Below the pieces are notes generated by a model. The model saw only the letters and a list, made by a program, of their open reading frames with translations, ran no database searches and was not told the DNA's origin. From positions 1 to 33,910 of the forward strand of contig JABWAQ010000033.1 of NCBI GenBank assembly GCA_013360945.1: a stretch of DNA of 33,910 nucleotides, written 5' to 3'. This DNA comes from Candidatus Brocadia sp. (GTDB lineage: Bacteria; Planctomycetota; Brocadiia; Brocadiales; Brocadiaceae). The position numbers were made by a program, and so were the translations under genes. The stretch's first letter is position 1, and every line of letters begins with the position of its first letter. Below are positions 356-32,605 of this stretch, piece after piece.

Positions 356-1525
356 ATGAAAAGGGCAAATAAGGTTTTGATAGTATGTGCAGTTCTTTTG
401 CTGTCAATGTCCATAGTCCCATCTCTCCTGGCCAACCATGATGGTGCAGACGAACCGACAAAGGCAGAGGTGATTCAAAAGACCAAAAAACTCCAAATAC
501 CTTTCATTGCCAATGAAGGGCAGATGGATGAACAGGTAAAGTTCTATGCCAACACCTTTGGGGGGACAGTATTTGTAACAAAGGATGGGGAGATTGTCTA
601 TTCACTGCCGGGGAGGGACAAGGTGCAAGAAACAGGGGTCGGGTGCCGGGGATCAGGGGTCGGGGAAGGGGGTTACGACCCACGAATACCTTTAGACCAT
701 TTAGAAGATCACGTAGGGTGGATAAAGGCGTTGTCGTTTGCGCCGTATCCACCAACATTATTTCCCTATCTGGTGGATTCGCTGGCGCCTAATCGTTCGA
801 CTGAGCGCTCACGACGAAGTCCGTCCTTCACGACCTCAAACGATAATGCGACACGGACAAACGGTAGGGGCGTATTGCAATACGCCCTTACTTGCTTGCG
901 GGAGAGGGATAGGATGAGGGGTATCTCTCTGAAAGAAGAGCTTGTCGGTGGGAAGATTTCCGGGATAACAGGGGAAGGGACTTCTGCAACAAAGGTGAAC
1001 TATTTTAAAGGAAATGATCCTTCCAAATGGAAAAGCAACGTTTCCACTTACGACATTATAAATCTCGGTGAGGTATATGAGGGGATAGGCTTGAGACTGA
1101 AGGCTTATGGAAACAATGTTGAAAAACTCTTTTGCGTAAAACCCGGCGCAAATCCTGATCAGATAAAGATACGATTGGATGGCATACAACCCCCTGGAAA
1201 TCCACCCCCTACCCCCGCCAGCGGGGGACAACCACCTGTCCCCCTCACTGAGGGGGATAAAGGGGGAGGGGTGTCTGCAACATCACTTTTAGAAAAGGGA
1301 ACAACACCCATATTCTTCTTAACAAAGGGAACAACCCCCGTCTTCTCCTTAGTAACTTCTATATCCAACTTACTAAAGGAAACACAACCCCCTGAATCCC
1401 CCTTTATTAAGGGGGACTTGACGAAATCCCCATTTGATAAGGGGGAAGGGGGAATATTGTGGAAATTCCCCCTTAACAAAGGATGCAACCACAAATTCCC
1501 CCTTAACAAAGGGGGCAACCACTAA
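356..1525 (+). CDS. SBBP-repeat surface protein, N-terminal part (frameshifted)
   Basis: This is the first half of a large secreted protein whose remainder is the frame at 1434-5546. The start ATG follows AAGGAGG at good spacing. Residues 1-26 form a signal peptide (basic start, leucine-rich core, A-x-A-like end). Then comes the N-terminal domain typical of SBBP proteins: FIANEGQMDEQVKFYANTF at about residues 49-67, and later VNYFKGNDPSKWKSN and VEKLFCVKPGANPDQIKIR. Between these lies about 100 residues of translated repeat DNA (nt 630-920). The C-terminal 80 residues are a 10-residue repeat (consensus S-P-L-x-K-G-x-T-T-P) encoded by the tandem array at 1281-1591. The frame stops at 1523-1525, but the family sequence (LSINEHGELVVETE) continues in the +1 frame, so this is one gene with a frameshift around 1441-1462. 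Intact length would be near 1,729 residues. Confidence 0.75.
   Translation: MKRANKVLIVCAVLLLSMSIVPSLLANHDGADEPTKAEVIQKTKKLQIPFIANEGQMDEQVKFYANTFGGTVFVTKDGEIVYSLPGRDKVQETGVGCRGSGVGEGGYDPRIPLDHLEDHVGWIKALSFAPYPPTLFPYLVDSLAPNRSTERSRRSPSFTTSNDNATRTNGRGVLQYALTCLRERDRMRGISLKEELVGGKISGITGEGTSATKVNYFKGNDPSKWKSNVSTYDIINLGEVYEGIGLRLKAYGNNVEKLFCVKPGANPDQIKIRLDGIQPPGNPPPTPASGGQPPVPLTEGDKGGGVSATSLLEKGTTPIFFLTKGTTPVFSLVTSISNLLKETQPPESPFIKGDLTKSPFDKGEGGILWKFPLNKGCNHKFPLNKGGNH
713..796 (+). repeat. Dispersed inverted repeat inside CDS (partner 5739-5825)
   Basis: The first 41 bases match 5739-5779 at 37 of 41 positions (GTAGGGTGGAT... TTTGCGCCG...ATCCACC). Both copies continue into a complementary arm starting GGTGGAT, so each can fold into a hairpin. 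At 5739 the element is intergenic; here it is translated within the SBBP N-terminal domain. Confidence 0.75.
791..821 (+). repeat. 31-bp perfect inverted repeat, left copy
   Basis: These 31 bases (starting AATCGTTCGACTGAGCGCTC) are the exact reverse complement of 1713-1743. Both copies sit inside the same gene and are translated. The centre TGAGCGCTCA is itself palindromic. Confidence 0.9.
865..890 (+). repeat. 26-bp palindrome inside CDS (partner 7425-7450)
   Basis: Identical to the perfect 26-bp palindrome at 7425-7450 except for one base (a T for C in the right arm). It consists of TAGGGGCGTATTG followed by its near-exact complement. Here it is translated as part of the SBBP N-terminal region. 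Confidence 0.8.
1208..1276 (+). repeat. C/G-run repeat inside CDS (partner about 9610-9692)
   Basis: Blocks CCCCGCCAGCGGGGGACA and TGTCCCCCTCA-TGAGGGGGATA, followed by AAAGGGGGAGG, recur in the same order in the intergenic stretch 9610-9692 with a few changes. Each block is a local inverted repeat. The copy here is in frame and encodes a Pro/Gly-rich stretch. Confidence 0.65.
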
Positions 1526-1591
1526 ATCCCCCTTAGAAAAAGAAACAACCCCTATATCCCCCTTAATAAAGGGGGCAAGGGGGTTGTCAAT
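1281..1591 (+). repeat. Degenerate 30-bp tandem repeat array within the SBBP gene
   Basis: About ten units share the core TCCCCCTTAAYAAAGGGGGC followed by AACC. The last four (from 1461, 1491, 1521 and 1551) have an exact 30-bp period, so each encodes ten residues. Taking the first T after the C-run as landmark, successive units lie about 30, 30, 21, 33, 30, 40, 30, 30 and 30 bases apart. All are multiples of three except the 40, which falls at 1433 to 1473 and coincides with the frame break. Single copies of the unit occur at 5692-5727 and 31699-31736. Confidence 0.85.
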
Positions 1592-4500
1592 AAATGAACA
1601 CGGCGAGCTTGTGGTTGAAACGGAATTTGGCCCAGTAAAATTCACGAAACCTGTGGCCTACCAGGAGATTGATGGAAAAAGGGTGGAAGTAGAATGCGGA
1701 TATGTGATTTCAGACTTCGTCGTGAGCGCTCAGTCGAACGATTGCGGAATTCAGGAGACAGGAGACGGGAGTTTGAAATCAGAAGACAGAATTCAGAATA
1801 CAGACACAGACCTCATAAATCCGAAATCTGAAATCCGAAATCCGAAATCGGAATACGGTTTCAAGGTAGCCGCCTATGATAAAACAAAGGAACTTGTTAT
1901 AGATCCCTTGCTTGCCTCCACATTTCTAGGGGGATCGTATGAGGGGTGGTATAGTGGTGATAAAGCCACTGCCCTTGTACTTGACACCGAAGGGAACGTC
2001 TATGTGGCGGGTATTACGTACTCAAGAGACTTCCCCGTCACGAACGGGGCATATGATACCTCACTTGAACCTTCTTGGGGGGATGTCTTTGTCTCAAAGC
2101 TGGACAGTGGATTGACCAGCCTGATTGCATCCACCTTTCTGGGTGGGTGGAACTATGATCTTGTCCTTGACCTTGCCCTCGACTCCGAAGGAAACGTGTA
2201 TGTGACGGGAGAAACGGATTCGTGGGACTTCCCCACCACAAGCGGGGCTTATGACACCTCATTTAATCGGTATGAGGGTTACCCGCTCTTTGCTCCTTAC
2301 GATGCCTTTGTCTCAAAGCTCAACAGTGGATTGACCAGACTTCTTGCATCCACCTTTCTGGGGGGATCGGATTCTGATTATGATAATGGCAATGCCCTTG
2401 CACTTGACACCGAAGGGAACGTGTATGTGACGGGTACTACTTACTCAAGAGACTTCCCCACCACGAGCGGTGCATATGATACCTCGCTTAATGGTGGTTC
2501 TGACGTCTTTATCTCAAAACTGAATAGTGGATTGACCAAGCTGATTGCATCCACCCTTCTGGGGGGATCAGATTATGATGTTTCGGAATACGGAGACAAA
2601 ATCCTTGCCCTCGATAAGGTAGGAAACGTGTATGTGACTGGAGATACGCGGTCATCAGACTTCCCCACCACAGTCGGGGCATATGATACCACGAATAATG
2701 GCGTTTTTTTTGCTCAAGATGCCTTTGTTTCAAAATTGGATAGTGGATTGACCAACCTGCTTGCATCCACCTTTCTGAGGGGATTGTATGATGATGAGAG
2801 CTTGGCCCTTACCCTCGACACCGAAGGCAATGTGTATGTGGCAGGATATACGTATTCATCAGACTTCCCCACCACGAGCGGTGCATATGATACATCGTTT
2901 GCTGATTCTGGATGGTATATGTACCCTGTTGATTCATTTGTCTCAAAGTTGGATAGTGGATTGGCCAACCTGATTGCCTCCACCTTTCTCGGGGGATATG
3001 ATCCTGATCTTATCAATGCCCTTGCCCTCGACTCCGAAGGAAATGTGTATGTGGCAGGAAATACGTATTCATCACTTTTCCCCATCACGAGTGATGCATA
3101 TGATACCTCGTTAAATTATGTCGATGCTTTTGTCTCAAAGCTGGATAGGGGATTGACCAACCTGCTTGCATCCACCTTTCTGGGGGGATTGTATGATGAT
3201 GAGAGCATAGCCCTTGCCCTCGACTCCGAAGGAAACGTGTATGTGACGGGAAAAACAGATTCGTGGGACTTCCCCACCACAAGCGGGGCTTATGATACTT
3301 CGTTTAATAATGACCCTAATTTCTTTAATTCTGATGCTTTTGTCTCAAAGCTGGATAGTAATCTTTCTTTTTCTGCGGAAGTGGTGTTTACCATTGAATC
3401 ATCATCCGATAACATTCGTAGTAATGAATCCGTGAATATCTCTGGAACTGTGACGTTGAAACCCAATGATGAAGCAACGCGAAAAATATTTCTCCAAAAG
3501 GAGGTAAAATTATTCCGTATTTCTCCAACCGGATACTATGAAGAGATAGTGACAACAAAACCTTTTTTCTCCGACAATGAACTAAGATATGAATTTAACG
3601 ATGTCCTATTACCTGAGATAGGCAGTTGGGAGGTGTATTGTTTTTATGACGACGGTGACGGCTTTCGGGGGACTACATCAGAAACTTTGGAAATTGATGT
3701 CGAGAGTGAACAAAAACCCGTTACTGGATATGCCATTCTTATAGAGGGCAAGGTTAAAGACGGTTCAGGCATAGATGCATACAATCTTACTTCGAATGAT
3801 ATCTACAAGAAACTTTTAAAGATGGGTTTTACAGCTAAGAATATTTATTATGCAAATTTCGATGATACCCAGAAAGGGGTGGATGCAAAACCGGATAAGG
3901 AGAAGATACTGGATGCTATAACAAAATGGGCGAAAAAGAAGATGAATAAGAAGGCCGCTCCCCTTTATATAATCTTTGTGGGACCTGGAGAAAAGGAGAC
4001 GTTGTTTATTGGTTCCGAAACGCTAACTGCGGGTGAACTATCAGAGTCATTAAATGCTCTCGAAGCAGGGTTAAATCCAGAAGCTTCAAAAAAGGATATT
4101 GTGGTTACCCTGGGCGCCAACCGCTCAGGGAGTTTTATTGACTCCCTGTCCAGGTCTGACACAAACCGTGTTATTATCACCAGCGCTGATACCGAAGAGG
4201 TTTCCTACCAAGGCCCCTTAGCGCCAGACGGGACAATTCGACAGGGAGACTATTTTGTATATGAATTCTTCAGGTATGCTACAATGGGTATGAATGTGAA
4301 GGGGTGTTATGAAAAGGCCGCTGACACCATTGCCGTATTTACCAATAATAAGAATGGGAATGGTTTAGGTGGCGCATGGGCTGGTAATGGAAGCTATTTT
4401 GATCATGCAGCACAACACCCATTAATGGATGATAATGGGGATAAAGTGGGAACCGCCAGGGTGTTTTTTTCTTACAACGGTGACGACGGCGACCGCTCTA

Positions 4501-5546
4501 GAGCACTTATAATAGGCAAGGGGAAAACTCCATCACTTGAATTTACACGGGTCACCGATGTAGTAACCCTGGAGTTAGGGGATACGACCCCTGAATTGTT
4601 TGCGGAGATAAGTGATACAGGTGAGAGCAATAAGGCATGGGTAGAGATTGAGTCACCCCAATACGGGCTGAAAAATGATAAAGAGTCCAGGGAACAGCAG
4701 GTCGTTGGCCTGCCCAGATATAGTCCCACCGGATTTGACGAAGAGAACAGGAGGTATACCTGGAACAGTTTTACCATCGCCGATTTCAAAGAGCCGGGCA
4801 AATATGGCATATTCTATTTCGCCCAAAATGTAGAAACAGGTGATATCACCCCGATTGTGACGTCAGATGTCTATAAGGAAAAGGATAATAACGGCCTGCA
4901 GGGTCAATATCTTCTCAATCTTCCCAAGGATAACGGGACGACATCTGTAGCCTTGACGTTCGATTGGACTGCTGACGGAAAGGATCCCAAAGTAACTTAT
5001 ACACTCACCATCTCGGAGAGCCCCACCTTTGATACGGTATATTATCAGCAGAAAGGGATTACAGAAGATAAGGGTTTCGTAGATTTGTCGGCCGGTCTGC
5101 TCAATGGCGCTACCTATTATTGGAGGGTACTGGCGAGTGATGACGAGGGAAGGACGGAATTTATAAAGCGATTTGAAGATAGTGGAGGTGAAGGCATTAC
5201 CCGTAAAGGGGTTTCCAGCGTTTCCAATGGAGGGAGTACAACTAATAGATTTACCCCTGAGGCAGGATCTTTTTATATTTTACCAATAATTAATGGGTAT
5301 GTGGTTGACAAGATAACAGGGGAGAAGATTGATGGAGCATTTGTTAATATTTATGATAAAAATGGGACCTGGGAGACTAAACTACGGGCAAAAAAAGATG
5401 GTTTTTATGAATCATTCCTGCCGCATAGTGGTAAATATAATATTTCTGCAAGCAGTTACGGATATGCAGATGGAGAGAAAATTATCAATGCAAATTCGGG
5501 TAAGAAAAAACTCGTGAACATGGAAATGGAGAAGGAAGCTTACTGA
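1434..5546 (+). CDS. SBBP propeller plus C13/caspase-like domain protein, C-terminal part
   Basis: This continues the 356-1525 protein in the +1 frame; the ATG at 1434 lies inside the repeat array and is probably not a true start. Residues about 1-60 are repeat-encoded, then the rest of the SBBP N-terminal domain follows. Residues about 160-642 hold seven SBBP repeats (ASTFLGG ... LALDSEGNVYVTG ... DFPTTSGAYDTS ... DAFVSKLDSGL), enough for one seven-bladed propeller. Residues about 765-960 resemble a peptidase C13/caspase-like domain: YIIFVGPG at 845-852 and VVTLGANRSGSFID from 890. The expected His and Cys are replaced by Pro851 and Asn896, so catalysis is unlikely. Residues about 1160-1245 look like a fibronectin type III domain and 1285-1365 like a carboxypeptidase-regulatory beta domain. 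Extracellular, substrate unknown. It is followed by a long repeat-bearing intergenic region. Confidence 0.85.
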   Translation: MIRGKGEYCGNSPLTKDATTNSPLTKGATTKSPLEKETTPISPLIKGARGLSINEHGELVVETEFGPVKFTKPVAYQEIDGKRVEVECGYVISDFVVSAQSNDCGIQETGDGSLKSEDRIQNTDTDLINPKSEIRNPKSEYGFKVAAYDKTKELVIDPLLASTFLGGSYEGWYSGDKATALVLDTEGNVYVAGITYSRDFPVTNGAYDTSLEPSWGDVFVSKLDSGLTSLIASTFLGGWNYDLVLDLALDSEGNVYVTGETDSWDFPTTSGAYDTSFNRYEGYPLFAPYDAFVSKLNSGLTRLLASTFLGGSDSDYDNGNALALDTEGNVYVTGTTYSRDFPTTSGAYDTSLNGGSDVFISKLNSGLTKLIASTLLGGSDYDVSEYGDKILALDKVGNVYVTGDTRSSDFPTTVGAYDTTNNGVFFAQDAFVSKLDSGLTNLLASTFLRGLYDDESLALTLDTEGNVYVAGYTYSSDFPTTSGAYDTSFADSGWYMYPVDSFVSKLDSGLANLIASTFLGGYDPDLINALALDSEGNVYVAGNTYSSLFPITSDAYDTSLNYVDAFVSKLDRGLTNLLASTFLGGLYDDESIALALDSEGNVYVTGKTDSWDFPTTSGAYDTSFNNDPNFFNSDAFVSKLDSNLSFSAEVVFTIESSSDNIRSNESVNISGTVTLKPNDEATRKIFLQKEVKLFRISPTGYYEEIVTTKPFFSDNELRYEFNDVLLPEIGSWEVYCFYDDGDGFRGTTSETLEIDVESEQKPVTGYAILIEGKVKDGSGIDAYNLTSNDIYKKLLKMGFTAKNIYYANFDDTQKGVDAKPDKEKILDAITKWAKKKMNKKAAPLYIIFVGPGEKETLFIGSETLTAGELSESLNALEAGLNPEASKKDIVVTLGANRSGSFIDSLSRSDTNRVIITSADTEEVSYQGPLAPDGTIRQGDYFVYEFFRYATMGMNVKGCYEKAADTIAVFTNNKNGNGLGGAWAGNGSYFDHAAQHPLMDDNGDKVGTARVFFSYNGDDGDRSRALIIGKGKTPSLEFTRVTDVVTLELGDTTPELFAEISDTGESNKAWVEIESPQYGLKNDKESREQQVVGLPRYSPTGFDEENRRYTWNSFTIADFKEPGKYGIFYFAQNVETGDITPIVTSDVYKEKDNNGLQGQYLLNLPKDNGTTSVALTFDWTADGKDPKVTYTLTISESPTFDTVYYQQKGITEDKGFVDLSAGLLNGATYYWRVLASDDEGRTEFIKRFEDSGGEGITRKGVSSVSNGGSTTNRFTPEAGSFYILPIINGYVVDKITGEKIDGAFVNIYDKNGTWETKLRAKKDGFYESFLPHSGKYNISASSYGYADGEKIINANSGKKKLVNMEMEKEAY
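1713..1743 (-). repeat. 31-bp perfect inverted repeat, right copy
   Basis: Exact reverse complement of 791-821. It interrupts the SBBP N-terminal domain between its ECGYVIS and KSEYGFKVAAYDKT segments and is translated in frame. Confidence 0.9.
1816..1853 (+). repeat. Short tandem repeat of GAAATCC-like units
   Basis: Four or five imperfect 7-8 base units (ATCCGAA, ATCTGAA, ATCCGAA, ATCCGAA, ATCGGAA) run in tandem and encode NPKSEIRNPKSEYGF. It adjoins the inverted repeat at 1713-1743, so this segment of the N-terminal domain is also built from low-complexity DNA. Confidence 0.6.
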
Positions 5547-5691: not shown

Positions 5692-5727
5692 AAATTCCCC
5701 CTTGGAAAATGGGGTAAGGGGGTTGTT
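5692..5727 (+). repeat. Solo copy of the CCCCCTT...AAGGGGG unit
   Basis: It reads TTCCCCCTTGGAAAATGGGG and then TAAGGGGGTTGTTA. This matches the last unit of the array (1555-1591) and the copy at 31699-31736, including the trailing AAGGGGGTTGT tail. Here it is intergenic. Confidence 0.7.
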
Positions 5728-5738
5728 ACACAATATGA

Positions 5739-5825
5739 GTAGGGTGGATTAAGGCGCTGTCTTTTGCGCCGAATCCACCTTCCACGTTTTTCTAAATGGT
5801 GGATGCGCTTCGCTTCATCCACCCT
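5739..5825 (+). repeat. Dispersed inverted repeat (hairpin) between genes
   Basis: The left arm starts GTAGGGTGGATTAAGGCG and the right arm ends ATCCACCCTACC, so the ends pair over about 11 bases; an inner GAATCCACC/GGTGGAT pairing also exists. It shares 37 of 41 left-arm bases with the translated copy at 713-753. Confidence 0.75.
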
Positions 5826-7402: not shown

Positions 7403-7424
7403 ATGCTCGTGAATTTCAACATTG

Positions 7425-7450
7425 TAGGGGCGTATTGCAATACGCCCCTA
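7425..7450. repeat. Perfect 26-bp palindrome between convergent genes
   Basis: TAGGGGCGTATTG is followed immediately by its exact reverse complement. A one-mismatch copy lies inside the SBBP gene at 865-890, and a core fragment (CGTATTGCAATGCG) at 16817-16830. It could form a hairpin in both transcripts, but there is no T-run, so calling it a terminator is not justified. Confidence 0.8.
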
Positions 7451-8967: not shown

Positions 8968-9088
8968 GTAACAGTTCACCCACCTCTTGTTCCTCACTGA
9001 ACGGGAACTGTATATCGTCTGGATAGCCCTGTCAGGGTTTTAAACCCTGACAGGGTATTGGCGTATGGGAAGGCGGGTGAACTGTTAC
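8968..9088. repeat. 14-bp inverted repeats bounding a 121-bp segment
   Basis: GTAACAGTTCACCC at 8968-8981 is the exact reverse complement of 9075-9088. Centrally between them lies the palindrome at 9027-9055. The arrangement resembles a miniature inverted-repeat element, though no target duplication was identified. Confidence 0.5.
9027..9055. repeat. Near-perfect 29-bp palindrome
   Basis: CCCTGTCAGGGTT and AACCCTGACAGGG pair over 13 bases around a three-base centre. The arm is itself an internal inverted repeat (CCCTGTCAGGG). There is no T-run after it. Confidence 0.75.
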
Positions 9089-9597: not shown

Positions 9598-9609
9598 CCC
9601 CTTCATCCC

Positions 9610-9692
9610 CGCCAGCGGAGGACAGATGGTTGTCCCCCTCAGTGAGGGGATACCTCTCCCTTTATCCCCCTCAGGAGGGGGATAAAGGGGGA
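9610..9692 (+). repeat. C/G-run repeat, intergenic copy (partner 1208-1276)
   Basis: CCCCGCCAGCGGAGGACA, then TGTCCCCCTCAGTGAGGGGATA, then a second block TATCCCCCTCAGGAGGGGGATA ending in AAAGGGGGAGG. The order matches 1208-1276 inside the SBBP gene, with one block duplicated here. Confidence 0.65.
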
Positions 9693-9733
9693 GGAACTAA
9701 TTGCTTGAAATCCCTTATTATTTAATCAGTAAA

Positions 9734-11820: not shown

Positions 11821-11873
11821 GGACAAACAGTCCCTGTTCAAAGCGTACAGGGACTGTTTGTCCGTGCCACCCC
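11821..11873. repeat. Perfect 17-bp stem-loop, dispersed family
   Basis: GGACAAACAGTCCCTGT at 11821-11837 is exactly complementary to 11847-11863, with a nine-base loop. The tail GTTTGTCCGTGCCACCC (11856-11872) recurs in inverted orientation at 13951-13967, and a degenerate copy lies at 9576-9597. It sits between the TPR and PHP genes; no T-run follows, so it is treated as a mobile-type repeat. Confidence 0.8.
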
Positions 11874-11915
11874 AAATAGTGCTTAAATAAAATGAAAATT
11901 CCTTGTACAACAGAA

Positions 11916-13795: not shown

Positions 13796-14131
13796 GGTAT
13801 TTTTGCCTTTTTTAAACCTTTTTGCCTCTTTCGATATTTTTTGATTTTACCAGCATTCTCAAGGTATTCAAGGACATTTATTTCTTGTTTCTTTTTACCC
13901 GGAAGCAGCTTGATCGTCTAGGAATTTACATTTTATTTAAGCGTATTTTCGGGTGGCACGGACAAACTTGTTTGTCCGTGTTTATCCTGATAAACATCGG
14001 AAAGAAGTATATTAAAGAAGGCGTAATTGATAATAAAGGCTTGATAAACGAAAGAGACCCCCAGAACCTCATTCCGGTTCTTTCCCACATTTCCATTGAC
14101 ATGCAAACCATAATAGAGATAATTTCATTTT
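13796..14131. other. Intergenic region with a hairpin repeat
   Basis: No coding region is supported; a 122-codon plus-strand frame running through here has no family resemblance and contains the hairpin repeat 13951-13980. A smaller hairpin (AGAACC...GGTTCT) lies near 14065-14083. The promoter of the SprT-like gene at 14132 should be in this stretch but is not obvious. Confidence 0.5.
13951..13980 (+). repeat. CACGGACAAA hairpin, dispersed family
   Basis: CACGGACAAA (13957-13966) and TTTGTCCGTG (13971-13980) pair perfectly around a CTTG loop. With the preceding GGGTGG, 17 bases match the reverse complement of 11856-11872. Confidence 0.75.
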
Positions 14132-29345: not shown

Positions 29346-31664
29346 ATGATTAAAAATACCCGCGGAACAAAAGGGCTCGTTAGCTTTTTTCAGAGTATCA
29401 AGGTTAAGCTTATATGCTATTTCATACTCATGACAACATTTCCTATCCTGATTGTAAGTAGCACGGCTTACAAGAGTGGGAAAAAAGCGTTAAACGAGAG
29501 GGTAGTTGAAAAATTAACATCTATTGCAGACCTTAAAAAGGCACAACTCAGCAACTGGATACAGGAGAGGATTGTTGACATTGGCGTCCTTGCAACGAAC
29601 AAATCTTTGGAAGTGTCCTTTTCCAATCTGCTTTACCTGAGACAGGCATTTCGTACCATTGATAGGATGAAAGAGTCGGAAATCGGTGTTGTTAATTACA
29701 AAAGACTTTCGGAATATTTAAATAAACTCAAAGAAAAATTCTTCTATTGTGATGAAATATCTATTCTGGATGTAGAAAATGGCGAAATTGTAATATCTAC
29801 AGAAGCCTCAAACATCGGGGAAGTGGATGGAAATTACCGGTATTACCTCAACGTGCTGGGAAACAATGGAATGCCTTTCAAAGATATCTCCTACTCAAAA
29901 AATACAAAGCAAGCGGAGATGACTCTCTTTGGAGTTACGAAAAGAACCGATCCGATTACTATGGAGGAGACAGATATTGTCAATGGCATTGTACTTATCC
30001 GGATGAATACTAATGACTCTATAGGTTCCCTCCTCCAGGATTGGCCGGGCAGTGGAGAAACGGGCGAGACCTTACTGGTGCGCCGTGATGGAGACCGGTT
30101 AACATTCCTCAATAATACCCGGCATCTTACGGATACCGCTTTAAAAATGAATATTCCGGTGGAGCCGATTGTCCCCCTGTCTTTTATGTTAGACAATCGG
30201 GAAGAAGGAATTACAGAGACAGTTGATCATAGGGGAGTTAAGGTCCTCCTGGCTTATCGGTACCTACCCCATTTGAAATGGGGATTGATGGTAAAACAGG
30301 ATACATCTGAGGCATTTAAGCCTATCACGGAATTAAAGGAACAGGTAATTACCCTGGCGACCGTAAGTGTAGTGATTATTGTAATTATCATTTTTGTTCT
30401 GGCACATGGTATTACACAACCAATCCTTCAGTTAGTCAAAGGAGCGAATGCGATTGGAAAGGGAGACCTCGGACACCGTATTTCAATCAACTCACAGGAC
30501 GAGGTAGGTATTCTTGCATCGGAGTTTAACAAAATGGCTGAAAAGGTGGAAGAGTCTTATGCAGGGCTGGAACAAAAGATCCGCGAAAGAACCGCGCAGC
30601 TTATTGAATCCGAAGAAAAATACCGTGAATCCATCAATCTGGCTAACGACGCCATTTTTACCCTCGATACCGATTCGGCGCTGATCATTGATTCAAATAA
30701 AAAAGCTATGGAACTATCAGGATATCTAAAACATGAATTGAATACAAAGAAGATATGGGAAATTGTCCCCGAGTATGATCGGGAAAAGACAAAACAGTTG
30801 TGGACAACAATAAATGATACAGGTTCCGGCATGCTCGACAACATTGATTGTCAGCACATTGATGGAAGACTCACCCCTACGAGCATCAGCGCCAGTGTCA
30901 TTACCCATGGCAAAAAGAAGACGATTCAATGGATTTGCAGAGATATTACCGAGAGGAAAAGAATGGAGTTACAATTGATCCAGGCCGAACGATTGGCCGC
31001 TGTGGGAGAACTGGCAGCGGGTGTAGCCCATGAAGTGAACAATCCGTTAGGAGGATTGCAGAATTTCGTGAAGATGATGAAGAAAGAACCGGGGAACATA
31101 TTGCAAAATCTCGAATTTCTTGATTTAATGTTTGAAGGACTAAAACGGATTGAGGTTATTGTAAAACAGTTGATGGCATTTTCCAGGCCATATTCCTTAC
31201 ATATATCCAATCACAGTTTAAATGAGATTGTAGAAAATTCTTTACGGTTTGTGGATCACAGAATAAAAGAGCAGGGTGTACAGTTGGAAAAAGTTTTATA
31301 TCCGGAATTGCCTGAAATCCTGGGAGACGCAGACCATATCTCACAAGTTATTATTAATGTTATCGTAAATGCCCTGGATAGTATGCCGTACGGTGGCAAA
31401 CTGATAATTAAAACCGGTTACTGTGATTCTCAACCATCGCGTATACAGGTTGCGATTACCGATACCGGAAAAGGGATTCCGGAAGAAATTCTTAATAAAA
31501 TATTTAACCCGTTTTTTACTACCAAGGAAATGGGAAGCGGTTTGGGACTTGCAATTAGTAAGAGAATCGTAGATGATCATAATGGAAACATACTCTTGAA
31601 GAGCACGCCTGGTGAAGGGACGACATTTTCTGTTTGTTTGCCGGTGAGAAAAGTAATTTTGTGA
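29346..31664 (+). CDS. Membrane sensor histidine kinase with PAS domain
   Basis: A 772-residue two-component sensor. Order: transmembrane helix 1 (about 21-40), a periplasmic Cache-like sensor of about 300 residues, helix 2 (about 338-358, VSVVIIVIIIFVL), HAMP (ITQPILQLVKGANAIGKGDL), a coiled linker, a PAS domain (YRESINLANDAIFTLDTDSA), HisKA with the phosphorylated His562 in GVAHEVNNPLGG, and HATPase with N-box-like INVIVNALDSM, G1 ITDTGKGIPEEI and GSGLGLAISK. No receiver domain or partner regulator is adjacent. The ATG at 29346 is preferred over the TTG at 29331. Its stop overlaps the next gene by one base. Confidence 0.9.
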   Translation: MIKNTRGTKGLVSFFQSIKVKLICYFILMTTFPILIVSSTAYKSGKKALNERVVEKLTSIADLKKAQLSNWIQERIVDIGVLATNKSLEVSFSNLLYLRQAFRTIDRMKESEIGVVNYKRLSEYLNKLKEKFFYCDEISILDVENGEIVISTEASNIGEVDGNYRYYLNVLGNNGMPFKDISYSKNTKQAEMTLFGVTKRTDPITMEETDIVNGIVLIRMNTNDSIGSLLQDWPGSGETGETLLVRRDGDRLTFLNNTRHLTDTALKMNIPVEPIVPLSFMLDNREEGITETVDHRGVKVLLAYRYLPHLKWGLMVKQDTSEAFKPITELKEQVITLATVSVVIIVIIIFVLAHGITQPILQLVKGANAIGKGDLGHRISINSQDEVGILASEFNKMAEKVEESYAGLEQKIRERTAQLIESEEKYRESINLANDAIFTLDTDSALIIDSNKKAMELSGYLKHELNTKKIWEIVPEYDREKTKQLWTTINDTGSGMLDNIDCQHIDGRLTPTSISASVITHGKKKTIQWICRDITERKRMELQLIQAERLAAVGELAAGVAHEVNNPLGGLQNFVKMMKKEPGNILQNLEFLDLMFEGLKRIEVIVKQLMAFSRPYSLHISNHSLNEIVENSLRFVDHRIKEQGVQLEKVLYPELPEILGDADHISQVIINVIVNALDSMPYGGKLIIKTGYCDSQPSRIQVAITDTGKGIPEEILNKIFNPFFTTKEMGSGLGLAISKRIVDDHNGNILLKSTPGEGTTFSVCLPVRKVIL

Positions 31665-32605
31665 TGAAGTCATACATAACGCAGCACAGCCTCAACCAAG
31701 CCCCCATTAGTAAAGGGGACGAAGGGGGTTGTCAAAAAACTTGCAAAAAAAGAAAGAATTTATACGGCAATACTATAATTTGCGGGTTCTTTTTATATGT
31801 TGTTCTGATATCCGGTTGTGCAACCCATAAGACACCATCTTTGCAAAAACCGGTTTGGGAGGATACCTCGGCTATCCTGGGGAACATCCAGGGGAAGCCC
31901 CGGAATCTCTCATTACAACAAATACGGGATACTTTGGTTTCCAACAATTCAAAGCTTACCACTTTTCGCGCAAACGCAGACTTAACCCTTACCATGCCAG
32001 ACTCCAAAGGACCCATCCGGTGTACCGGATTGATAGTATATCAGAGTCCCAGGAGTTTCCGGACAATAGGCTCTAAGTTTGCTACAACGTTGTTTGATAT
32101 GTCCTCCGACGGCAATAAGTTCTGGTTGCATATTCCTCCGGAAAACATGGTGTATACCGGCGCATCCAATACCTTTCACCGGATTGAGGCGCTTGGCATC
32201 AACATCTTCCCCGGTGATATGGCGGGACTGTTCAATTACCGGGAAATTTTGGAAGGAAAGAAATCTACGATGGAAATCTGGCCGGCCTATTGGCTTATGC
32301 ATATGCTCGAAGCGGATAAGGAGGATGTGAACCTCACAGGAAACCTTTTGGTTGACCGTATCAATGCGGAGGTTTTCCGATGTGAATTGTTTAATTCAGA
32401 CGGCTCTGTACGTCTGCAAGCGGTATTCACCAATTATACAACTCAGAATGAGTGCAGGATACCTCAAAGGATTGATGTTCGATGGCCGTCCTACAAAACA
32501 ACCCTGAGCATAACGTTTTCTCATATTGTCGTAAACGGAGCGCTCGACCCAGAACTATTTACTCTTTCAATACCGAAGGACGCACAGGTAATTACCCTGA
32601 ACTAA
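31664..32605 (+). CDS. Outer-membrane-type lipoprotein (LolB/DUF4292-like)
   Basis: A 313-residue lipoprotein beginning at the ATG that shares its A with the kinase stop codon (TGATG), so translation is probably coupled. The signal peptide is unusually long: hydrophobic IICGFFLYVVLISGC is reached only at residues 38-52, with Cys52 as lipobox cysteine. Residues about 12-24 (QAPISKGDEGGCQ) are encoded by a copy of the dispersed CCCCC/GGGGG repeat. The mature part has LTTFRANADLTLTMPDSKG and a lipid-binding-like beta sheet resembling LolB or DUF4292, with no enzyme motif. It may work with the kinase, or just share its transcript. Confidence 0.75.
   Translation: MKSYITQHSLNQAPISKGDEGGCQKTCKKRKNLYGNTIICGFFLYVVLISGCATHKTPSLQKPVWEDTSAILGNIQGKPRNLSLQQIRDTLVSNNSKLTTFRANADLTLTMPDSKGPIRCTGLIVYQSPRSFRTIGSKFATTLFDMSSDGNKFWLHIPPENMVYTGASNTFHRIEALGINIFPGDMAGLFNYREILEGKKSTMEIWPAYWLMHMLEADKEDVNLTGNLLVDRINAEVFRCELFNSDGSVRLQAVFTNYTTQNECRIPQRIDVRWPSYKTTLSITFSHIVVNGALDPELFTLSIPKDAQVITLN
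31699..31736 (+). repeat. Solo copy of the array unit inside a lipoprotein signal peptide
   Basis: CCCCCATTAGTAAAGGGGAC then GAAGGGGGTTGTCAA matches the unit ending the array at 1555-1591 and the intergenic copy at 5692-5727, including the AAGGGGGTTGT tail. It is in frame within the n-region of the 31664-32605 protein. Confidence 0.75.

Follow-up and report, generated by a model that had tools for sequence, protein, structure and literature searches.

Palindromic repeats, mostly in frame, in three loops of the DUF7948 domain of a Brocadia-type bacterium

Palindromic repeats that are read in frame within genes are already known from several systems. Rickettsia palindromic elements (RPEs; Ogata et al. 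2000) are described as palindromic repeats lying in frame within protein genes, typically in non-structured segments. Intragenic GTAG/CGTC repetitive extragenic palindromes (REPs; Di Nocera 2013, PMC3733652) are presented as short palindromes, mostly intergenic with some within genes, also in Planctomycetes. In-frame fusions are known for miniature inverted-repeat transposable elements (MITEs; PMC10969869; Delihas 2007, PMC2759123), and palindromic amphipathic repeat coding elements (PARCELs; PMC2996958) are palindromic DNA encoding variable protein parts, with tandem 25-residue repeats of the DUF285/TIGR02167 type. For Kuenenia, sequence shifts suggesting hybrid surface-layer (S-layer) genes have been described (PMC7709395). 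Here we analyse repeats within a gene for a DUF7948 and SBBP protein in Candidatus Brocadia sp. (GCA_013360945.1, contig JABWAQ010000033.1, positions 1 to 33,910); this whole stretch of 33,910 nt is referred to as the window. The original prediction, made from the letters of the window, had held that few systems place such repeats in frame and that Rickettsia is the closest. RPEs are indeed a precedent, but so are REPs, MITEs and PARCELs.

Our preferred explanation, which we consider very probable, is that DUF7948 has permissive loops under selection against frame loss, and that dispersed palindromic elements have inserted there, been turned over and mostly been translated. The repeat families are dispersed through the genome and enriched in the loops; the insertion sites occur both empty and filled, and open reading frames are in excess. 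The window copy and its repeats (E1 to E5) are laid out as follows, the gene being assigned by Pfam and the core pieces by profile search.

356-5546, + strand: gene for the DUF7948 and SBBP protein, split as two open reading frames (ORFs) in different frames, 356-1525 and 1434-5546
503-628, + strand: DUF7948 core, profile 1-41
629-880, + strand: loop A insert, in frame
713-796, + strand: E1 palindromic repeat; 713-783 matches intergenic 5739-5809 at 79%
791-821, + strand: E2 repeat, read NRSTERSRRS
864-890, + strand: E3 palindrome, read RGVLQYAL; 96% to 7424-7450
881-1189, + strand: DUF7948 core, profile 55-148
1186-1587, + strand: loop B insert, length 3n+1, delimited by E5 terminal inverted repeats ACAACCCCCT / AGGGGGTTGT
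1213-1269, + strand: E4, two joined palindromes within the loop B insert, in the orientation opposite to the G008 and G010 copies
1281-1587, + strand: E5 array of CCCCCTTANNAAAGGGGG-type units
1523-1525, + strand: TAA ending the first ORF inside the E5 array, the frame break of the window copy
1563-1724, + strand: DUF7948 core, profile 143-196, in the frame of the second ORF
1713-1743, - strand: E2 repeat, read DFVVSAQSND, inverted copy of 791-821 (31/31)
1713-1853, + strand: loop C insert, in frame; the inverted E2 copy, then AATCCGAAATC-type repeats
1954-3327, + strand: SBBP beta-propeller repeats
5696-5726, + strand: intergenic E5 copy, 84% to array unit 1557-1587
5739-5809, + strand: intergenic E1 copy
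7424-7450, no strand assigned: intergenic E3 copy
9607-9694, + strand: intergenic E4-related hairpins

By eye, the N-terminus of the 356-5546 product resembles a signal peptide, and DUF7948 proteins are probably made. Matches were verified for all five element groups that had been proposed (713-783, 791-821/1713-1743, 864-890, 1213-1255 and 1557-1587), and four families do have an intergenic copy in the window, at 5739-5809, 7424-7450, 9607-9649 (81% to 1213-1255) and 5696-5726. The genome holding the window (G000; 3.85 Mb, 196 contigs), presumably from a Ca. Brocadia-type anammox bacterium, has dispersed copies of these families. E1 occurs at nine places (BLAST, without a backwards-pattern control), E2 at 16 (control 0) and E3 at 12 (23 matches at up to three mismatches; control 0). 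The E5 core gave 36+41 matches (control 0) and the E5 terminus ACAACCCCCT 58+64 (control 2+4). The joined E4 core was rejected as a high-copy family, with only five places among 31 genomes at up to three mismatches; the E4 half TCCCCCTCAGTGAGGGGGACA alone gave four matches in a 263 kb sample of G000 (up to four mismatches). By a simple ORF call, the E1 places comprise two DUF7948 genes, one doubtful 88-aa ORF and six sites outside ORFs; ten loci from the 16 E2 places comprise three in DUF7948 genes and seven outside ORFs; and the E3 places comprise two DUF7948 genes, two genes of other Pfam families, one 149-aa ORF without a Pfam match and seven sites outside ORFs.

Four of the five places with the joined E4 core are DUF7948 genes (the fifth is unexamined), a pattern that would suit repeats that originated as DUF7948 coding sequence and were then copied to intergenic DNA. 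We give such a reverse flow very little credence: most of the examined E1-E3 copies in G000 lie outside called ORFs, E3 is more abundant (38+36 matches) in G037, an order-level genome from another family, and the DUF7948 domains of other phyla (see below) have no loop B insert.

Outside DUF7948, E5 copies measure 74, 74, 74, 104, 105 and 162 bp, and paired termini are separated by 35-36, 63-67 and 89-96 among the matches listed. A difference in E5 unit spacing, 30 nt in coding copies and 31 nt elsewhere, was rejected because the distributions overlap. We note that, within 31634-31732, the beginning of the ORF called at 31634-32605 overlaps an E5-like copy; the true start of this ORF may be further downstream.

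A DUF7948 profile was built from 16 domains, and 98 domains from 28 genomes were chained regardless of frame. These 98 are a non-random part of the DUF7948 matches and several were chosen for a split domain, which overstates the proportion of filled loops. The chains contain 152 gaps of at least 45 nt beyond the profile, 146 of them within three loops: 65 in loop A (profile about 40-50), 17 in loop B (about 144) and 64 in loop C (about 187-191). The six elsewhere rule out strict confinement to three places. Those in L101 (profile 158), L091 (profile 162) and L175 (profile 173) look real, those in L113 and L119 seem to be artefacts of chaining, and that in L202 lies just before loop B. A search for orthologs through the C-terminal part of the protein gave 15 stretches that matched a pattern, none of which was confirmed.

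A scan with family consensus sequences covered 149 loops with a length of 60 nt or more (62 A, 17 B and 70 C); the strings for E6 to E10 came from loops already seen, and the scan thus describes spread over loops and not independent discovery. E5 is present in 10 of the 17 B loops and 3 of the 62 A loops, and E4 in five B loops. Loops C and A hold most of the remainder: AATCCGAAATC-type repeats (34 C, 11 A, 2 B), E6 (7 C, 3 A), E2 (4 C, 2 A) with the related E2b (3 C), and E1, E3 and E7 (2 A each). E8/E8b was found in two C loops and one B loop, and E9 and E10 in one B loop each. Shuffling each loop once gave zero family matches. Further repeats of these kinds are seen in the window. An E6-type repeat (GTTTGTCCGTGCCACCC) forms an 88% inverted pair at 11856-11903 and 13920-13967, E6 also occurring in loops A and C of further DUF7948 genes. 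By eye, GAGCGGAGCGAAGAATCT lies at 317-334, directly upstream of the 356-5546 gene, and the same family, E7, is in loop A of L099 and L102. The palindrome CCCTGTCAGGG..CCCTGACAGGG at 9027-9055, also seen by eye, is outside the called long ORFs; in L098 a related palindrome, E9, is nested within loop B.

To measure enrichment, 73 loops from genus-level genomes, each 60 nt or longer (loop A of L087, whose two pieces overlap in the profile, was left out), were compared with a 1.25 Mb genus sample in which DUF7948 domains had been masked, using its sequence outside called ORFs. Intergenic matches were found for 21 of the 73 loops (A 6/31, B 5/6, C 10/36); core pieces gave 2 of 183 and random coding pieces 1 of 400. 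With matches of any kind counted, coding included, the figures are 21/73, 3/183 and 76/400. Intergenic matches cover 2392 of 11547 nt of loop sequence (A 513/5436, B 1040/1483, C 839/4628); the controls have 188 of 24155 nt in cores and 102 of 62244 nt in random coding sequence. Among 740 coding sequences outside DUF7948, 47 have some match and nine have a short cluster matching at least two intergenic segments, several at gene starts.

Of the same 73 loops, 71 have a length of 3n and 70 are open, a count that is inflated to the extent that frame breaks, above all in loop C, are missable where the last domain piece is short. Nineteen of the 21 repeat-bearing loops have a length of 3n and 18 are both open and 3n; random intergenic windows of the same lengths were stop-free in 271 of 4200 draws. 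The survival of frame-neutral insertions is thus well supported as a selective filter, and in that sense the proposal that frame neutrality is tolerated or selected is borne out.

The window copy itself is an exception to the claim that its repeats are all translated. Loops A and C keep the frame. In loop B, whose insert is 3n+1 long, the array breaks the frame at the stop codon 1523-1525, and the remainder of DUF7948 continues in a different frame (ORF 1434-5546). This may be an assembly fault, because other G000 copies of DUF7948 stop where a contig ends within or next to loop B (C46, both ends of C32, and C186); contig C65 ends slightly before loop B. The loop repeats may also be the reason why such DUF7948 genes are cut off at contig breaks in the G000 assembly. 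The split window copy and these contig ends also fit a picture of pseudogenes or assembly artefacts, dead genes collecting repeats like other non-coding DNA, as do the 8 of 98 domains that lie in two ORFs. The break falls in loop A of L087 and L185, loop B of the window, loop C of L098 and L122, loops B and C of L189 and just before loop B in L202; the split of L119 is probably a chaining artefact. L087 belongs to G002, a single-contig genome placed in the same genus as G000. Dead or misassembled genes are nevertheless an improbable explanation: nearly all of the 73 loops are open and in frame, five of the six G002 domains examined are in one ORF and the cores are almost free of repeat matches.

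Loop B has the clearest history. In other phyla (L227-L229 and L231-L249) it measures 24 nt in 22 of 22 loci, with loop C at 33-48 nt and loop A at 0-159 nt; L220, titled Nitrospira, likewise has a loop B of 24 nt. A core tree of 94 domains, many of whose node supports are low, has the B insert present in 21, absent in 71 and unscored in two. At least 11 gains or losses are required on this tree, also when nodes under 0.7 or 0.9 support are collapsed; shuffled labels gave a mean of 19.2 and a lowest value of 13. A single gain would require at least 14 losses. Within one clade (support 0.954), loop B is empty in L033 and two L120 copies and filled in L201 and L202. Insertion, for which orthologs without the inserts had been proposed as the test, is well supported by the 22 other-phylum loci, by the empty anammox sites and by a radical SAM gene discussed below.

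Filled B loops in several genera start with ATACAAYC and end GGGTTGT-like, these being E5 termini; different flanks are seen in loops L116-L118 and L198 of G022. The common edges suggest one old founding insertion, probably followed by nesting and loss. The same edges, and the variable length of loops A and C everywhere, could be taken to mean that the segments are an old fixed part of the DUF7948 domain. That reading we find extremely hard to sustain, the loop B insert being absent from all 22 other-phylum loci and from 71 of the 92 scored anammox domains; distant relatives do not carry the same segment at this position. The E4 core lies on the strand of the gene in G010 and G008 and against it in both G000 copies, which points to E4 having been turned in place or replaced. 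These directions were taken from the strands at four loci and by-eye reading, the automatic direction test having flagged the window alone. In L190 (G012) the loop B insert seems, by eye, to hold a partial duplication of adjacent core coding sequence.

E3 is also found in frame in other genes. The radical SAM gene of G000 and G001 has eight codons more than most, and in the aligned orthologous loci (L268-L281, own copy included, the G003 locus L282 being left out of the count) the E3 site is filled in 2 of 14 and empty in 12 of 14. This case supports mobility in the form of past activity within the history of the genus. The predicted active repeat family is thus upheld as to past activity; the single family is replaced by many, in three loops. 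E3 is also present in the gene for the V-ATPase AC39 subunit. That case is older and not a clean insertion, because E3-like segments occur there in G005, G009 and G011 and diverged ones in G014, G016 and G017. E3 is read RGVLQYAL in the window and VGAYCNTPL-like in the radical SAM and AC39 genes, so no single E3 peptide is kept. In the order-level relative G037 two contigs end in E3 in or beside an AC39 gene (L315 1045-1081 and L316 1-40), at a position that differs from G000; G040, a congener of G037, has unrelated sequence of similar length at that site.

An AlphaFold2 model of the L207 domain (Brocadia sp. WS118, one ORF) has 170 of 372 residues at a predicted local distance difference test (pLDDT) score of at least 90, a mean of 72.0 and a predicted template modelling score of 0.65. 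The confident core is all-beta; confidence is low at 41-130 (loop A), 231-270 (loop B) and 321-350 (loop C). Ten-residue means are 79-98 in the core and 33-59 over most of the three loops, where low values may partly stem from few aligned sequences. The model fits flexible loops, which are plausibly exposed and function-neutral. Comparison of the DUF7948 model with solved structures gave zero matches at E <= 0.001.

Taken together, the three loops of the DUF7948 beta-domain would be permissive insertion sites for palindromic elements dispersed between anammox genes and probably moved by transposition or recombination. In loop B an E5 element with terminal inverted repeats may have come first; E4 and other families would later have nested in it, E4 being turned round in some lineages and the insert removed or replaced in others. 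Loops A and C would receive E1, E2, E3, E6, E7, E8 and AATCCGAAATC-type repeats. Most insertions that cause a frameshift or introduce a stop would be removed by selection, and the survivors would be translated as a flexible loop peptide whose sequence matters little.

Several observations weigh against this account. For 52 of the 73 loops the 1.25 Mb sample gave no significant intergenic match. The domains in two ORFs imply that tolerance is incomplete or that assemblies err, the count of open loops is inflated as stated, and low model confidence need not mean flexibility. The distribution on the tree could also have arisen if the B insert was gained once, long ago, and then lost many times. 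No clear target-site duplication was seen at E5 copies (15 rows, by eye), and no mobiliser was found in the Y1_Tnp flanks or at the E5 termini of G000. None of the 16 Y1_Tnp loci had E1-E4 in the flanks examined and one had E5-like matches; the scan is weak for E1, which is also absent from the 263 kb sample, and few chance matches are expected at the densities of that sample, so that the result shows no association and is not an exclusion. A REP-associated tyrosine transposase (RAYT) is accordingly unsupported as mobiliser. The search for a parent transposon of E5, a by-eye scan among the matches listed (part of 122 termini), gave a single candidate, a 1.9 kb arrangement on C33, among whose ORFs no transposase was recognised by eye.

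Loop repeat capture could also be adaptive, favoured because it alters an exposed surface protein (phage contact, adhesion), with swapping and turning giving variants; such diversification can coexist with permissive loops and a frame filter. Close orthologs differ strongly in their loops (loop B is 87 nt in L087 and 495 nt in L098), E4 direction varies between species, there are several DUF7948 matches per genome, and the hybrid S-layer genes suggested for Kuenenia (PMC7709395) point the same way. We nonetheless think it rather unlikely, since neutral tolerance gives the same pattern and repeats are about as common in intergenic DNA (matches elsewhere in the sample cover 79186 of 235758 nt, counting any match, a measure that differs from the loop count). 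Neutral tolerance is the simplest reading of the loops and adaptive capture the most interesting. In its boldest form, which we offer as a tentative idea, the loops are evolved landing sites at which anammox surface proteins diversify by capturing, nesting and turning dispersed palindromic repeats at fixed places. If this is true, the repeats are a built-in, largely frame-safe source of loop variation, because turning in place keeps length and E2, E3 and E4 are open on both strands (in four of six frames). On either reading, this is a free-living lineage of importance to the nitrogen cycle in which in-frame capture of non-coding palindromic repeats is countable, with the same loops, many families, many paralogs and both empty and filled sites. 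The route by which mobile non-coding repeats turn into protein can be tested in it, as can the question whether surface loops act as neutral sinks or as selected sources of variation.

Like RPEs, the Brocadia repeats occur both between genes and in frame inside genes, and insertion is shown by orthologs without the element (the empty radical SAM loci and DUF7948 loop B sites). As to the RPE trait of one family in many unrelated genes, E3 lies in DUF7948, radical SAM and AC39 genes, the last being no clean insertion. RPEs, compared by description only, differ in lying in many unrelated genes, whereas the Brocadia case has many unrelated families in three loops of one paralog family. With GTAG REPs they share short palindromes that are mostly intergenic and in part intragenic. 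E1 starts with GTAG ahead of a GGTGGAT/ATCCACC stem (by eye); in E3 the GTAG belongs to the palindrome with no unpaired tag (by eye), and no RAYT gene with E1-E4 beside it was seen in the flanks examined of the 16 Y1_Tnp loci. E5 resembles MITEs in its terminal inverted repeats and short recurring sizes, but neither a clear target-site duplication (same 15 rows) nor, among the termini listed, a parent transposon was found. PARCELs likewise encode variable protein parts, but DUF285 is absent among the Pfam matches of the two window ORFs (TIGR02167 was not searched). Among the top-ranked results in the open-licence literature we found such inserts reported neither for anammox bacteria nor for DUF7948/SBBP proteins, and we found no account of several families piling up at shared loop positions within a single set of paralogs. 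What is new is therefore not the in-frame palindromic repeat itself but a dense and unusual version of it, with many unrelated families that stack and turn over in loops common to one paralog family.

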